43,242 nucleotides of DNA from positions 1 to 43,242 of IMG/VR virus record IMGVR_UViG_3300032086_002585; one strand, 5' to 3'. The stretch comes from a virus. Positions 14,247 through 37,784 of the stretch are shown here, piece by piece. The notes beneath the pieces are model-generated. The model saw only the letters and a list, made by a program, of their open reading frames with translations. It searched no databases and was not told the origin of the DNA. The translations under genes were made by a program, and so were the position numbers. Numbering within the stretch: the stretch's first letter is position 1; the number at the start of each line of letters is the position of its first letter.

Positions 14247-14440
14247 TAGTTAAACGCACCGTAACAGACGCACAAGGTAACTTTCAATACTCAGTGCTAC
14301 ACGAGCATTGTTCGCACAGTAGCGCTGCAGGTAGCCTGCAGGTTATGAAAAGCAACTCTTTGATATCATCAAAGCTTAGTAATTTAAATGTGACAGTGGT
14401 GTTTGTAGATAGTGAAACTTACACATTTACGGAATTATGA
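14243..14440 (+). CDS. Hypothetical protein (GTG start), 65 residues
   Basis: The reading frame is open further upstream, but that part overlaps the two preceding genes and does not look coding. The GTGA overlap at 14243 gives the better start, a protein opening VIVKRTVTDAQGNFQYSVLH. Beta-rich, no family recognised. Confidence 0.6.
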   Translation: MIVKRTVTDAQGNFQYSVLHEHCSHSSAAGSLQVMKSNSLISSKLSNLNVTVVFVDSETYTFTEL

Positions 14441-14451
14441 GGAGTTTAACT

Positions 14452-15090
14452 ATGCTTAGTGCTGGTAGTGTTTTTAATAGTAAAAATAGCGGAAGCTTTG
14501 AAATTGTAGAATACATAAATTACAAGGAAGTTATTATTAGATTTATTGATACTGGTTATGAGACATCTGTTCATCTGTCATCAGTAAGAAGTGGAAGTAT
14601 CATGGATAGAATGCGACCCTCATTGTGTGGTGTCGGATTTATAGGATCAGGAAAGTACGCATCAAAGGTAAATAGAAGGCCAACCAGATCTTACGGAGTT
14701 TGGATTGGGATGATAAGGAGGTGTTATGATGTTGATAGAAAGAAAAAGAACGAGTCATATAAGGACTGCACTGTTTGCGATGAGTGGCATAATTTTCAAA
14801 ACTTCGCTAAGTGGTTTGAGGCTAACTATATAGATGGATTTCACCTTGATAAGGATATAAAAATTAAGGGGAATAGAGTTTACTCTCCAGATGCCTGCAT
14901 GTTTGTCAGCGTTCAAGATAATGCAGATGCATCGCTATCCAAGAGCTATAAATTTAAAAGCCCCGAAGGATGCATTGTTGATGTCTATAATTTATCAAGG
15001 TTCTGTAGGGACAATAAGCTAAATACTGGGCACATGTGCAATGTGCACTGCGGAAAGCTAAAGCAACACAAAGGCTGGAAGGCTCTTTGA
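14452..15090 (+). CDS. Homing-endonuclease-like protein, copy 1
   Basis: A 212-residue member of a three-copy family in this genome. Shared parts in order: an N-terminal domain ending in a VRSGSIMDRMRPSLCGVGF motif; a central nuclease-like domain with CTVCDEWHNFQNFAKWFEAN, LDKDIKIKGNRVYSPDAC and FVSVQDN; and a NUMOD1-like C-terminal helix region ending KQHKGWKAL. The paired Cys, the Asp/Lys/Asp strand and the final Asn resemble HNH-type free homing enzymes, though no full HNH motif is seen. The ATG with AGGAG seven bases ahead was chosen over the ATG at 14437. It is A/T-rich, which suggests recent arrival. Confidence 0.6.
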   Translation: MLSAGSVFNSKNSGSFEIVEYINYKEVIIRFIDTGYETSVHLSSVRSGSIMDRMRPSLCGVGFIGSGKYASKVNRRPTRSYGVWIGMIRRCYDVDRKKKNESYKDCTVCDEWHNFQNFAKWFEANYIDGFHLDKDIKIKGNRVYSPDACMFVSVQDNADASLSKSYKFKSPEGCIVDVYNLSRFCRDNKLNTGHMCNVHCGKLKQHKGWKAL

Positions 15091-15699: not shown

Positions 15700-16251
15700 C
15701 TAGCCAGCGGGTGTAATTCTAACCGCGAACATAATCAAATCAGTGAGAGTTAAGTTGCCAGCCGTGTTGGATGACACTTCAATTCCTAAATCTTCCCCTG
15801 GAGCTATGCTTCCAAACACGACAGTGGAAAACCCAATAGCAGGAGAGCTGCCGCCAAAAGAAACGCCCACAGGGTAAAACTTAATCCCACCCGTAAACTC
15901 CTGACCCAAACTGCTTGCCACCTTTACCCCTATGTATGTATCAAGGAATGCCGGATCGTCCGCAATGATAGTTCCGCTAAAATCCACGCGATAAGACCTA
16001 GTTTCTGTTGAGTTGTGCTTAGCAACGGCAAATTGATTACTTCCTGAAATAAAGTCAGCATCATAACCAGCGACCGGAGCTGCTAGTGGCGTTGTTATCT
16101 CTGCCGTCTCAAACTGATTAGGATCTGCTGTTACGGGGGTTGCAGCATTGTCATTGTTCGTGACAAGAATGTTTGACGGAGCGCCATCAAAAATATCACC
16201 ACCTCCATTGCCACCTCTAGCGAAACCATCAATAGGTATAATTCCAGCCAT
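15700..16251 (-). CDS. Putative virion surface protein, 183 residues
   Basis: Gly/Ala/Thr-rich beta protein: GFARGGNGGGD near the start, then a jelly-roll-like series of short strands ending in DLIMFAVRITPAG. Such proteins often decorate phage heads or tails. It starts on the stop of the 88-residue gene (TAATG), so the pair is coupled. Role inferred from composition. Confidence 0.45.
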   Translation of the reverse strand: MAGIIPIDGFARGGNGGGDIFDGAPSNILVTNNDNAATPVTADPNQFETAEITTPLAAPVAGYDADFISGSNQFAVAKHNSTETRSYRVDFSGTIIADDPAFLDTYIGVKVASSLGQEFTGGIKFYPVGVSFGGSSPAIGFSTVVFGSIAPGEDLGIEVSSNTAGNLTLTDLIMFAVRITPAG

Positions 16252-16517
16252 TAGTATTCCACCTCTAACTTACCAAGGTCGCCATCTAGGGATGCGCGAA
16301 CCCAACACTCATTAGCTCCAGATTCAGATCTAAAGAACTCGCCTACATTAAATTGAAACCCATCAATAGCGCCATCAGGAGCTGTGGTTGACGTTGCAAC
16401 CTTTACGCCTCGACCTCTAGATACTTGCGCGTCAATTTGAGCGCCAACAGTAGCACCAGAAAGCGCATTTAGAGACTGCCAGTCACCAGATATACTGATT
16501 GTTTTTTGAGTTGCCAT
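16251..16517 (-). CDS. Putative small virion protein, 88 residues
   Basis: Beta-rich protein with ISGDWQSLNALSGATVGAQI and a C-terminal beta part (NECWVRASLDGDLGKLEVEY), a style I associate with small phage head-decoration or fibre-linked proteins. Strong SD AAGGGGG. It is the first gene after the promoter at 16622-16651, so this cassette is controlled apart from the main structural run. Confidence 0.45.
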   Translation of the reverse strand: MATQKTISISGDWQSLNALSGATVGAQIDAQVSRGRGVKVATSTTAPDGAIDGFQFNVGEFFRSESGANECWVRASLDGDLGKLEVEY

Positions 16518-16621: not shown

Positions 16622-16651
16622 ATTATAGCTTAGTTGTTAGCTAGGTAACAA
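16622..16651 (-). promoter_or_regulatory. Promoter TTGTTA-18-TATAAT for the virion-like cassette
   Basis: Minus-strand consensus -10 at 16622-16627 and a good -35 at 16646-16651, partly within the end of the secreted-protein gene. The next 100 bases are a leader to the 88-residue gene. Confidence 0.55.
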
Positions 16652-16908
16652 CCTGTCGCTACTTCATTGGCAAAGGACTTGATGGCGTTATCTTTCCACT
16701 TATCACCAACGAATGATGGCTTGCTGTAAGCTTGGATTACAATGGCTCTTTTAACGCTATCACTAGCAGTTCCCATCACCTTAACCATAGACACCTCATC
16801 CTGGCGCTTGGTCATGACATCCTCAGCGAATTCATGCAAAGCTTCACAGTCCATAGCGGAAGCAGGAAGTGCCACCATCAAGGCAGCTAGAGCAATTAGT
16901 TTCTTCAT
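16630..16908 (-). CDS. Secreted (periplasmic) phage protein
   Basis: A 92-residue protein with a clear signal peptide (MKKLIALAALMVALPASA, cleavage after ASA) and a small helical mature domain with two Cys (CEALHEFAEDVMTKRQDEV and ATGCYLANN). This small exported family occurs in several phages of gammaproteobacteria as far as I recall. Its function is not known, but cell-envelope action such as blocking superinfection is possible. It lies two bases after the CsrA-like gene. Confidence 0.7.
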   Translation of the reverse strand: MKKLIALAALMVALPASAMDCEALHEFAEDVMTKRQDEVSMVKVMGTASDSVKRAIVIQAYSKPSFVGDKWKDNAIKSFANEVATGCYLANN

Positions 16909-16910
16909 GA

Positions 16911-17168
16911 TTAAACCCTATTAAGTAGAATGTGACGGGGAGCAACCAGACCAAACTTAACACCTCGATCGATACTGAGAATGTTAATGTTGCACTCGTT
17001 GATGTCTATTTCAACTTGCTCGGGTATCTTTTTGATTTGCATTTCGCCATTAATCTTCAAAACGCAAGTGGGGTGATTATGTGAGATGAGAGTGATAATA
17101 CACTCTTTGTCGGTTAGTTCGTTGTATACGCGAAAGGATTCGCCGGCGTTGCGGTACAGTGTCAACAT
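16911..17168 (-). CDS. CsrA-like RNA-binding protein with middle insertion
   Basis: An 85-residue protein whose two ends match CsrA/RsmA. The N-terminus MLTLYRNAGESFRV keeps Leu4 and Arg6. The C-terminal block NILSIDRG-VKFGLVAPRHILLNRV aligns with CsrA beta3-beta5 and keeps the GxxAP turn and the Arg equivalent to R44. Between them are about 40 extra residues, part of which (CIITLISHNHPTCVLKING) looks like a second beta3-beta4 unit. The normal C-terminal helix is missing. CsrA binds GGA hairpins at ribosome sites, so this could retune host or phage translation. It starts on a TAATG overlap with the homing-like gene, with SD GAGGG. Confidence 0.6.
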   Translation of the reverse strand: MLTLYRNAGESFRVYNELTDKECIITLISHNHPTCVLKINGEMQIKKIPEQVEIDINECNINILSIDRGVKFGLVAPRHILLNRV

Positions 17169-17926
17169 TATTTTACCCTCTTTAAGTTTGTCCATCCGCG
17201 ATAATGAGAGAATTTGCCATCCCTAAGCTTTTGAAGGCATGATATTGTCATTTTGTTTTCCCTTGCGAACTTGGTAATGCCAACAAAGTAAATAACCTCA
17301 CCATCAGGATTTTCAATAGAGTATGGCTCTCTGACTTTATAGGTTGGAATCGGGTTTCTTTTTCTTTTTGGTAAGCCAGAGCGGCTTTCGTCATAGTTCT
17401 TACCTCTAGAGGAAAAGGAAACATTCTCCTCCCTTGTTGCAAACTTGCACGTCTCTGGCGAGTAAATCTTATTACCTGGAACCCTTATGTCTTTATCAAG
17501 ATCGTAGCAAATACCATCTCTTGGGTAGTTTTCCTCAAACCAATCTGCAAAAATCTGAAACTCTTGCCACTCTTCACAAACCTCGCACTCGATGTACGTT
17601 GGATGTTTTTCGTGCCATTTAGGTGAGTAACACCTCTGAAGCATGACTGTCCATCTTCTATACGCGACATTCTTGCTGCTTGCCACGTGAGGCCCAAACC
17701 CAACAAATCCGACACCGTAGTATGATGGGTACATCTTATCCCTTACGGCCCCTTTATTTATTGCGCCTTGGTATGCTTCAGATTTGGTTTGAGTTTCTTT
17801 GAATGTAATGTGGTATCTATCAGATATTCCTTCAACCTTGCCAGTTACGGTAAAGTTCCCGAATCTTTTAGATTGATATTCTGCACCTATAAAGATATTT
17901 CCGGTGCGAGGGGTTTCTATTAGCAT
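17168..17926 (-). CDS. Homing-endonuclease-like protein, copy 2
   Basis: A 252-residue paralogue of the proteins at 14452 and 21821. It shares GAVRDKMYPSYYGVGFVGFG, YIECEVCEEWQEFQIFADWF, LDKDIRVPGNKIYSPETC and FATREEN, then a longer basic linker and a NUMOD1-like end with VGITKFARENKMTISCL and HYRGWTNL. SD GGAGG eight bases before ATG 17926 fixes the start. The promoter just upstream is flanked by an 8-base inverted repeat. The CsrA-like and secreted-protein genes follow directly, so a mobile endonuclease heads the operon. Confidence 0.6.
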   Translation of the reverse strand: MLIETPRTGNIFIGAEYQSKRFGNFTVTGKVEGISDRYHITFKETQTKSEAYQGAINKGAVRDKMYPSYYGVGFVGFGPHVASSKNVAYRRWTVMLQRCYSPKWHEKHPTYIECEVCEEWQEFQIFADWFEENYPRDGICYDLDKDIRVPGNKIYSPETCKFATREENVSFSSRGKNYDESRSGLPKRKRNPIPTYKVREPYSIENPDGEVIYFVGITKFARENKMTISCLQKLRDGKFSHYRGWTNLKRVK

Positions 17927-17946
17927 AGTCGTGACCTCCGTGGTTT

Positions 17947-17988
17947 CATGACGCCACCATAATAGCAGCGTCATGTGGAGTATTGCAA
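17947..17988 (-). promoter_or_regulatory. Promoter with 8-bp inverted repeat around its -10
   Basis: TTGCAA (17983-17988), 18 bases, TATTAT (17959-17964) on the minus strand. The arms CATGACGC (17947-17954) and GCGTCATG (17968-17975) are a perfect inverted repeat 13 bases apart that brackets the -10. This is what a repressor site looks like. Confidence 0.6.
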
Positions 17989-18001
17989 ATAGTGAGCCAT
18001 T

Positions 18002-35906: not shown

Positions 35907-37784
35907 TTATCTAACTGTGTAGCTAATGTTATCGAAGCTAATCCAAGAAGAAGGAACGCTATTAACTTGTATTTGACCGCCAACCGATATGCTGACCAGC
36001 GCAACTCCACCATCGTCACGAGTTATAGTAAACACGTCCCTCTGGCCGGGAGGGTCGATTCCTAAAGGTATATTCCCAACCGCTGTGCTCGCTGACCCGT
36101 TAGGTTGAACAATCCCACTTAAAAACACTTGGTTTTTAATCTGAACAGCTTGTAGTCTTTTTGCAGGGTCTGCGCCAAAGTCGCCCCATGTTGAGTTGTA
36201 GGTGCAATCAATGGGCAGTTCGACATACTTATCAGATTGATTTATATCATCGCGGTAAGGCATATATGGCATAGCAAGATCATAACAAAGACGATGCGCG
36301 TAAAGTATGTGCCCTGAGTCGTCAGGGTGTAAGCCATCCGAATATAAGCCCCTATCTAACAATCCAATTAGATCCGCCCTAAACGCCTGGTGCCCATCAT
36401 CTTCAATCATGCCAAGCATTGCGGTTTTATAATCTTCATAAGAAAAACCAGATTCGATAACAGGCCACATACCTTCATTAGCCTTGGGCGGGATGGCAAC
36501 CACAAAATGCGGATTAGACAACGTAGCTTTAATCTTAGATATTAAGCTTCGAGCCTCTGCTACAGTGTCATTCGGGGTTAATGATTTTGATGAGTTATAA
36601 ATATTATTTGTACCAAGTGCCAACACAACCACTTGAGACGCGCTCCCAAGCAACGTTGTTATCTTATTAATTTCATCTACTGAGCTTTGAAGGTTAAAGT
36701 CTTGATATCCCCAGCCGGACTTGCCATAGCGATGTAGAATTGGGGCGTTAAATGCCTTCCTTAGTGGAACTATTGACTTGACAATAATTGTACCGCCATT
36801 AGCTTGTATTTTTATTGCGTTACTCTTGTCAGTGCGTGTTATTGGCGTGGGAAATGTGGTCAATGTATCGCTAGTTGTTAATAGCGTCTCGCTAGCAACA
36901 ACAGTGTCATCAATCAATATATCCATGCTTCCGCTTGACAACGTCCCATCATAGATTACATCGACAAAATCAAGCTGGTATTGACTCATCAGGATATACT
37001 CGCCGTCGTCCAACCGCAAAACACTACCTGTAGTGGTCGATCCCGCTATAAGTTGACCAGTAGTTGAGATGTTAGGCTCCTCTAGGGCATTAAACATATT
37101 GACGTTTAGGCCATAACCAAAGCCATCAGGTACGTTGCCATTGAGAGACTTTTCAAACATATTGGCGTAACGGTTTGACCAAACGCTAGCGCCAACACCC
37201 TCGGTTATAGAGTCGCCAATTAATATCACATCAGCTCTTGACCCCCGAGATATTGAGTAAAATAGATTGCCACTTGCCTTTCCTCTAATTGGCACGGCGT
37301 CTAAAGATGTAGCTTGCTTTACGCCGCCCAGGGTGGAGCCGTCCCCTATGTGGATAGTGTTATCTGTGGTGCTGACCCAAATCTCACCCATTGCGGGGGT
37401 GTAATTATTTATATTTTCACTCGTATCGATACCACTCCAAACCTGATTGCTATTAAGAGGCACGCTGCTGCCATCGATAGTTATACCTGCTTGTCTATTC
37501 GCAACACTATCGGCCTGGTAGTTGGTGAGTCCGCCTGTGATTGATTTAAGTGCATTTAGAATCTGAGGGTTTTCAACGCTATCAGGGTTCCCATTAGCAT
37601 TAATTCCGGCCTGTTCAAGAGCTGATTGCATAAACCCCTGAAAGTCATTACCAACGCGAGATGATAAAGGTGAGCCGTCATTAGACGATCCAGGGTTGGT
37701 TTCATCTTTAAGTGACCCAAGGGGGTATGCTGAGTCTGGTGGATTTGCTCTTGAGCCAAATTCATCTTTAACAATAGTAGCCAT
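35907..37784 (-). CDS. Tail fibre protein with SGNH/GDSL hydrolase domain
   Basis: A 625-residue protein. The N-terminal 80 residues (SSRVGNDFQGFMQSALEQAG, NGNPDSVENPQILNALKS) match fibre attachment domains of related phages. Residues 180-470 form an SGNH hydrolase: block I VILIGDSITEGVGAS, block III VVLALGTNNIYN, block V DGLHPDDSGH (Ser, Gly, Asn, Asp/His). The final 130 residues are beta-rich, probably a trimer tip. It likely removes acetyl groups from a surface sugar while binding the host. Start ATG with AAGGG ahead. Confidence 0.87.
   Translation of the reverse strand: MATIVKDEFGSRANPPDSAYPLGSLKDETNPGSSNDGSPLSSRVGNDFQGFMQSALEQAGINANGNPDSVENPQILNALKSITGGLTNYQADSVANRQAGITIDGSSVPLNSNQVWSGIDTSENINNYTPAMGEIWVSTTDNTIHIGDGSTLGGVKQATSLDAVPIRGKASGNLFYSISRGSRADVILIGDSITEGVGASVWSNRYANMFEKSLNGNVPDGFGYGLNVNMFNALEEPNISTTGQLIAGSTTTGSVLRLDDGEYILMSQYQLDFVDVIYDGTLSSGSMDILIDDTVVASETLLTTSDTLTTFPTPITRTDKSNAIKIQANGGTIIVKSIVPLRKAFNAPILHRYGKSGWGYQDFNLQSSVDEINKITTLLGSASQVVVLALGTNNIYNSSKSLTPNDTVAEARSLISKIKATLSNPHFVVAIPPKANEGMWPVIESGFSYEDYKTAMLGMIEDDGHQAFRADLIGLLDRGLYSDGLHPDDSGHILYAHRLCYDLAMPYMPYRDDINQSDKYVELPIDCTYNSTWGDFGADPAKRLQAVQIKNQVFLSGIVQPNGSASTAVGNIPLGIDPPGQRDVFTITRDDGGVALVSISVGGQIQVNSVPSSWISFDNISYTVR

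Follow-up and report, generated by a model that had tools for sequence, protein, structure and literature searches.

We found that the minus-strand gene at positions 16,911–17,168 of the viral DNA stretch analyzed here (43,242 nt; hereafter, the window) encodes a homolog of CsrA which is probably a single-chain version of this regulator, i.e., two CsrA cores placed in tandem in one polypeptide that would fold as the whole CsrA dimer sandwich. The translated product (MLTLYRNAGESFRV...APRHILLNRV*) is 85 aa long (85 codons and a stop). Homologs of the same 85 codons, free of indels, are carried by eight Vibrio phages (MG592425, OZ196844, MG592486, MG592434, MG592400, MG592448, MG592422, and MG592413; 75–97% identity) and by two viral contigs. 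In the phage records examined they are annotated as hypothetical, and in the annotated loci examined a terminase gene lies a few kilobases upstream. The dN/dS values among the homologs range from 0.05 to 0.16 (0.00–0.11 for the second unit of the protein and about 0.09–0.22 for the first), showing that the open reading frame is a real gene under strong purifying selection. The start codon at 17,168 is correct, since phages which lack the HNH gene found upstream in the window begin at the same methionine; a 94-aa reading frame starting at 17,195 was discarded as an artifact caused by the overlapping HNH gene. A pattern-based search of 84,980 species genomes from bacteria and archaea detected no relatives, nor were there any in the plasmids searched; it therefore seems to be a family of marine Vibrio phages. 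No second CsrA is encoded in the window.

As for the gene context, two small downstream genes of the same strand, 16,251–16,517 and 16,630–16,908, correspond to phrog_4770 and phrog_2315, to which no function is assigned. The product of the latter starts with a signal peptide-like stretch; in other phages, too, the csrA-like gene is followed by a gene of similar size. Further away, the product of the gene at 35,907–37,784 (minus strand), which has an Mtd_N-type N-terminal domain as well as a GDSL hydrolase domain, may be a tail fiber.

The relation to CsrA is visible at both ends of the protein, as had been claimed from the sequence-only reading. With a local profile built from 160 CsrA proteins, HMMER aligned residues 1–19 with CsrA positions 1–19 and residues 46–84 with positions 6–44, the latter with no net indel, and both matches were found in most family members. 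Homology thus extends over the β1–β5 core of CsrA, and positions 6–19 of the CsrA model are covered twice. Profile-profile comparison (hhalign) aligned only these two segments (E = 1.2e-5 for 46–84 and 1.6e-4 for 1–19, within 1–41). The score of residues 1–15 was equaled by none of 20,000 shuffled sequences and that of the C-terminal half by 4 of 5,000, so that a CsrA match by chance is ruled out. For the parts in between, the sequence itself speaks only weakly: 94 of 2,000 shuffles were as good for residues 20–41 taken as β3–β4, and 835 of 20,000 for residues 42–56 taken as β1–β2. The match of residues 46–84 to TIGR00202 (E = 6e-5) reaches 23.1 bits against a cut-off of 70.1, and that to the Pfam CsrA family PF02599 reaches 18.5 bits against 27; with scores under the curated cut-offs, the protein is overlooked by annotation pipelines.

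The residues singled out in the sequence-only reading, namely Leu4, Arg6, the Ala76-Pro77 turn, and the equivalent of CsrA R44 (Arg84), are all present. R6, A76, P77, N83, R84, and V85 are invariant in the ten homologs, which carry either Leu or Ile at position 4, so the equivalents of the RNA contacts (L/I4, R6, and R84) are kept throughout the family. In turn, the positions of the second unit that are equivalent to L4 and R6 are occupied by Q44 and K46. The protein is therefore homologous to CsrA, yet without several features of ordinary CsrA: the curated family score, the C-terminal helix, and, according to the prediction, the second RNA site.

The C-terminal helix was already reported missing in the sequence-only reading, and indeed the chain ends at the equivalent of CsrA residue 45 and its AlphaFold2 model is all-β. 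From three family rows alone AlphaFold2 gave a pLDDT of 46. After the addition of 25 canonical CsrA fragments (residues 6–45), aligned to residues 46–85 only, the monomer prediction that had been proposed returned a confident fold of nine strands (pLDDT 92.4, pTM 0.81), and four of the five models scored at least 84 in pLDDT. Residues 1–45 were covered by the three family rows only, hence the alignment did not impose their fold. N-terminal CsrA fragments were left out of the alignments, as MAFFT misplaced them. In the model, unit 1 (residues 1–41; 17,046–17,168, minus strand) consists of β1A (2–6), β2A (11–16), β3A (21–31), and β4A (34–39) and has no β5, while unit 2 (residues 42–85; 16,914–17,045, minus strand) contains β1B (42–47), β2B (50–52), β3B (60–66), β4B (70–75), and β5B (80–84). 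The strand starts thus recur with a shift of about 40 residues (2/42, 11/50, 21/60, and 34/70), and the fifth strand occurs in unit 2 only. In several phage CsrA proteins (L015, L016, and L102–L106) we observed a β2–β3 loop 3–4 residues longer, like the spacing in unit 1.

A0A2I7QSD7, which belongs to the family, has an independently made model in BFVD that shows the same fold (TM 0.99, 0.3 Å). A fold search of BFVD returned eight more phage proteins at E < 1e-3 (10–24% identity); the matches of probability 1.00 numbered about fourteen altogether and ranged from 6 to 24% identity, one of them being named carbon storage regulator. Among these matches, A0A6G5YD98, A0A6J7WXS8, A0A6J5RUQ1, A0A2I7QK84, A0A6G5YEX0, A0A2H4PHU8, A0A345BNA3, A0A1J0MD66, G8CTD4, and A0A088F6N9 measure 81–160 aa and show 12–24% identity. 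A0A6G5YD98, A0A6J7WXS8, A0A6J5RUQ1, A0A2I7QK84, A0A2H4PHU8, and others share the predicted fold over 85–96 columns (TM 0.77–0.87) and differ in sequence (14–24% identity, 81–114 aa), the comparison being one of predicted folds alone. Judged by these models, the matches may form a wide unannotated class with a single-chain CsrA-like fold. They were not reached by tblastn with divergent CsrA proteins. Sequence and fold searches of the PDB gave only weak CsrA/RsmF matches, with no significant single-chain match in the fold search, where RsmF ranked 20. Such an outcome would be anticipated if the relatives of known structure form their dimers from two chains, though it is no proof of it.

In RsmA, each sheet is built of β5A-β2B-β3B-β4B-β1A (PMC3791407), and the RNA sites of CsrA are formed by β1 and β5 of opposing monomers, which are edge strands of two different sheets (PMC3791407; PMC7652899); L4 and R44 are critical for the site (PMC7652899). 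The expectation expressed in the sequence-only reading, that both CsrA-like ends should lie in one β-sheet, is consequently not quite right, because the site spans the edge strands of two sheets. In the phage protein, β4 of unit 1 would turn via Asn-Gly straight into β1 of unit 2, which would replace β5 and the helix of unit 1. Reading strand 42–47 as β1B is favored over reading it as β5A, given the tight turn and the correspondence between KKIPE and the RRxGE hinge. Under either assignment a single strand would stand in for two. This would leave no more than one complete β1 + β5 pair, and a sandwich of nine strands rather than ten would have just one complete RNA face. From the strand count and the alignment, the predicted single complete site would combine β1 of unit 1 (L4/R6; codons of L4, Y5, and R6 at 17,151–17,159, minus strand) with β5 of unit 2 (R84; ILLNR, residues 80–84, at 16,917–16,931, minus strand), the exact sheet pairing being putative.

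Such a protein probably works like a monovalent CsrA. A CsrA dimer connects two sites within the same RNA, and single-site targets exist as well (PMC7652899); the phage protein would engage a single ANGGA hairpin at any one time and would not bridge two. The earlier suggestion that an altered geometry might select a different RNA spacing thus gives way to the prediction that just a single RNA site is complete and that two GGA motifs are not bridged. Also the proposed blocking of host CsrA by mixed dimers is disfavored and unlikely: both dimer halves are already in the chain, which should make pairing with host CsrA unnecessary. At single GGA sites the protein could act by repression or competition without mixing with host CsrA. 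A reason for caution is that RsmA truncated into the C-terminal helix loses its function (PMC3791407), and the phage protein has no helix.

The open edge left by the missing β5A could, in principle, let two chains pair into a dimer of pseudo-dimers, thereby restoring two RNA sites. It is the nine-strand prediction itself that invites this view, as one sheet would be left a strand short; we regard it as rather unlikely, albeit marginally better placed than the other alternatives.

A different explanation sees a single CsrA subunit that acquired a 40-residue insertion after β1 and still dimerizes, either with its own kind, perhaps in modified form, or with host CsrA. It agrees with the simplest MAFFT global alignment, which inserts one block of about 40 residues after R6, between R6 and K47 (the extra middle segment of the sequence-only reading is confirmed), and with the two-hybrid observation that the plasmid CsrA homolog RsmQ mixes with host Rsm proteins (PMC9928087). 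Yet, the inserted length equals one whole CsrA core (β1–β4), which points to a tandem repeat rather than to a CsrA with an odd insertion, and in the same vein the double match of CsrA positions 6–19 and the confident monomer model, with its full nine-strand fold and repeated strand spacing, speak against an insertion, leaving it a low probability. Accordingly, of the earlier description of a doubled middle, the doubling holds, whereas the idea that only an extra β3–β4 unit was added does not, the insert being the whole core.

The single-chain dimer reading gains a candidate RNA target from the region upstream of the gene. A conserved structured leader of 65–70 nt (TTTGCAATAC-YYY-hairpin-ACC-A(C/U)GGA-GG-ATG) lies directly 5′ of the csrA-like ATG, with no gene between, in seven loci. 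In the window (17,924–17,990, minus strand) and in phages 1.038.O and 1.029.O it instead ends at the ATG of an HNH endonuclease gene (17,168–17,926, minus strand; PHROG HNH, E = 9e-45). The HNH gene starts at 17,926 (its longest reading frame at 17,974), and its TAA stop overlaps the csrA-like ATG; as it sits exactly between the leader and the csrA-like ORF, it has taken over the leader. A protein encoded on the opposite strand (14,437–15,090, plus strand) resembles this HNH protein by eye, the pattern RCY...C..W..F..W...NY...LDKDI...GN..YSP..C.F being common to both. The leader is specific to the tandem csrA gene, one copy being seen per record, and leaders from six sources had no match among Rfam leader families at the gathering score.

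One segment of the leader can pair alternatively with an arm upstream or an arm downstream of it. In the former state the Shine-Dalgarno sequence is paired to an upstream CUCC/CCUC, and in the latter A(C/U)GGA is exposed in a hairpin loop over the Shine-Dalgarno. The Shine-Dalgarno core was paired in every leader folded with RNAfold. Both helices are supported by compensatory changes: one has 97% of alignment cells paired with three double-change pairs and the other 100% with two, these changes representing few independent compensatory events as there are only three or four leader haplotypes; sliding the helix partners by 1–3 columns destroys the pairing. The recognition sequence of CsrA/RsmE is ANGGAN (PMC3791407), and the window carries ACGGA (17,937–17,941, minus strand) in the alternative hairpin loop that overlaps the Shine-Dalgarno. 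Since this ANGGA also resembles a plain Shine-Dalgarno, its binding by the protein is what we infer. The first target would most likely be the protein's own mRNA leader, by way of this candidate hairpin, and the tandem csrA gene may thus be autoregulated; beyond this leader, the protein may also act on host mRNAs or Csr sRNAs, through which the host could be affected. Elsewhere in the window GGA hairpins are not enriched (7 versus 9–22 in shuffled sequences).

The leader also bears on the possibility that the tandem fold has given up RNA binding and serves as a protein partner or antagonist, e.g., of host CsrA regulators. The absent C-terminal helix, the degenerate second site, and several phage relatives that share the fold at only 6–24% identity would fit such a role, which we nevertheless hold to be about as improbable as the insertion, given the ANGGA hairpin in the leader and the invariance of R6, N83, and R84 in the ten homologs. 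That this is a chance β-rich phage protein with merely a CsrA-like N-terminus, as scores below the Pfam and NCBIfam cut-offs might suggest, is very improbable in view of the C-terminal half (4 of 5,000 shuffles; hhalign E of 1e-5), the RNA-site residues kept at both ends, and the confident fold.

Compared with CsrA/RsmA/RsmE (PF02599, TIGR00202), the phage protein retains the β1-β2-β3-β4-β5 order in unit 2, the equivalents of L4/R6 and R44, and the GE-type and AP hinges. It differs from them by having two cores per chain, a unit 1 devoid of β5, no C-terminal helices, a predicted single RNA site, and scores under the family cut-offs; in place of their two-chain domain-swapped homodimer it is predicted to form a one-chain pseudo-dimer. 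RsmN/RsmF of Pseudomonas aeruginosa is likewise a rearranged CsrA without the C-terminal helix, with RNA recognition kept in RsmN (PMC3791407), but it has its own helix between β2 and β3 and is a two-chain dimer, whereas the model of the phage protein shows no helix, its insert being a second core. Other CsrA homologs of phages and plasmids (RsmM, RsmQ, VvAW1, and 1.232.O) also belong to mobile elements, some of them Vibrio phages, yet these are ordinary single-core proteins with a CsrA-like stretch of about 50–60 aa. The list of 30 phages obtained by PSI-BLAST in a 2020 survey (PMC7366521, Table 3) includes 1.232.O and none of the Nahant phages with the tandem family. A further parallel is the engineered CsrA dimer with one R44A subunit, which has one working RNA face, as is predicted for the phage protein; it is a laboratory heterodimer, as opposed to the natural single chain proposed here. 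According to the account of Mercante 2009 given in PMC7652899, full glgC repression in such dimers needs both pockets. A literature search in open-licence papers found no description of a tandem or single-chain CsrA, consistent with the view of the sequence-only reading that no family of this form had been described.

CsrA serves as the model of a dimeric RNA regulator with two sites. If true, a natural CsrA with one chain and one site would make it possible to test directly what bridging adds, and would offer a compact scaffold free of subunit exchange. It would work on single hairpins and is not expected to swap subunits with host CsrA, which would explain how a phage can use the Csr code without mixing with the host protein. 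The fold search hints at many unannotated phage proteins of this kind, and the leader provides a small, testable target. Tentatively, and with slightly less than even confidence, we put forward that CsrA proteins with a single chain and a single site, which do not swap subunits with the host protein, form a so far undescribed class in wide use among phages, and that one member of this class, in Vibrio phages, regulates its own translation by means of a two-state leader that exposes one GGA hairpin.
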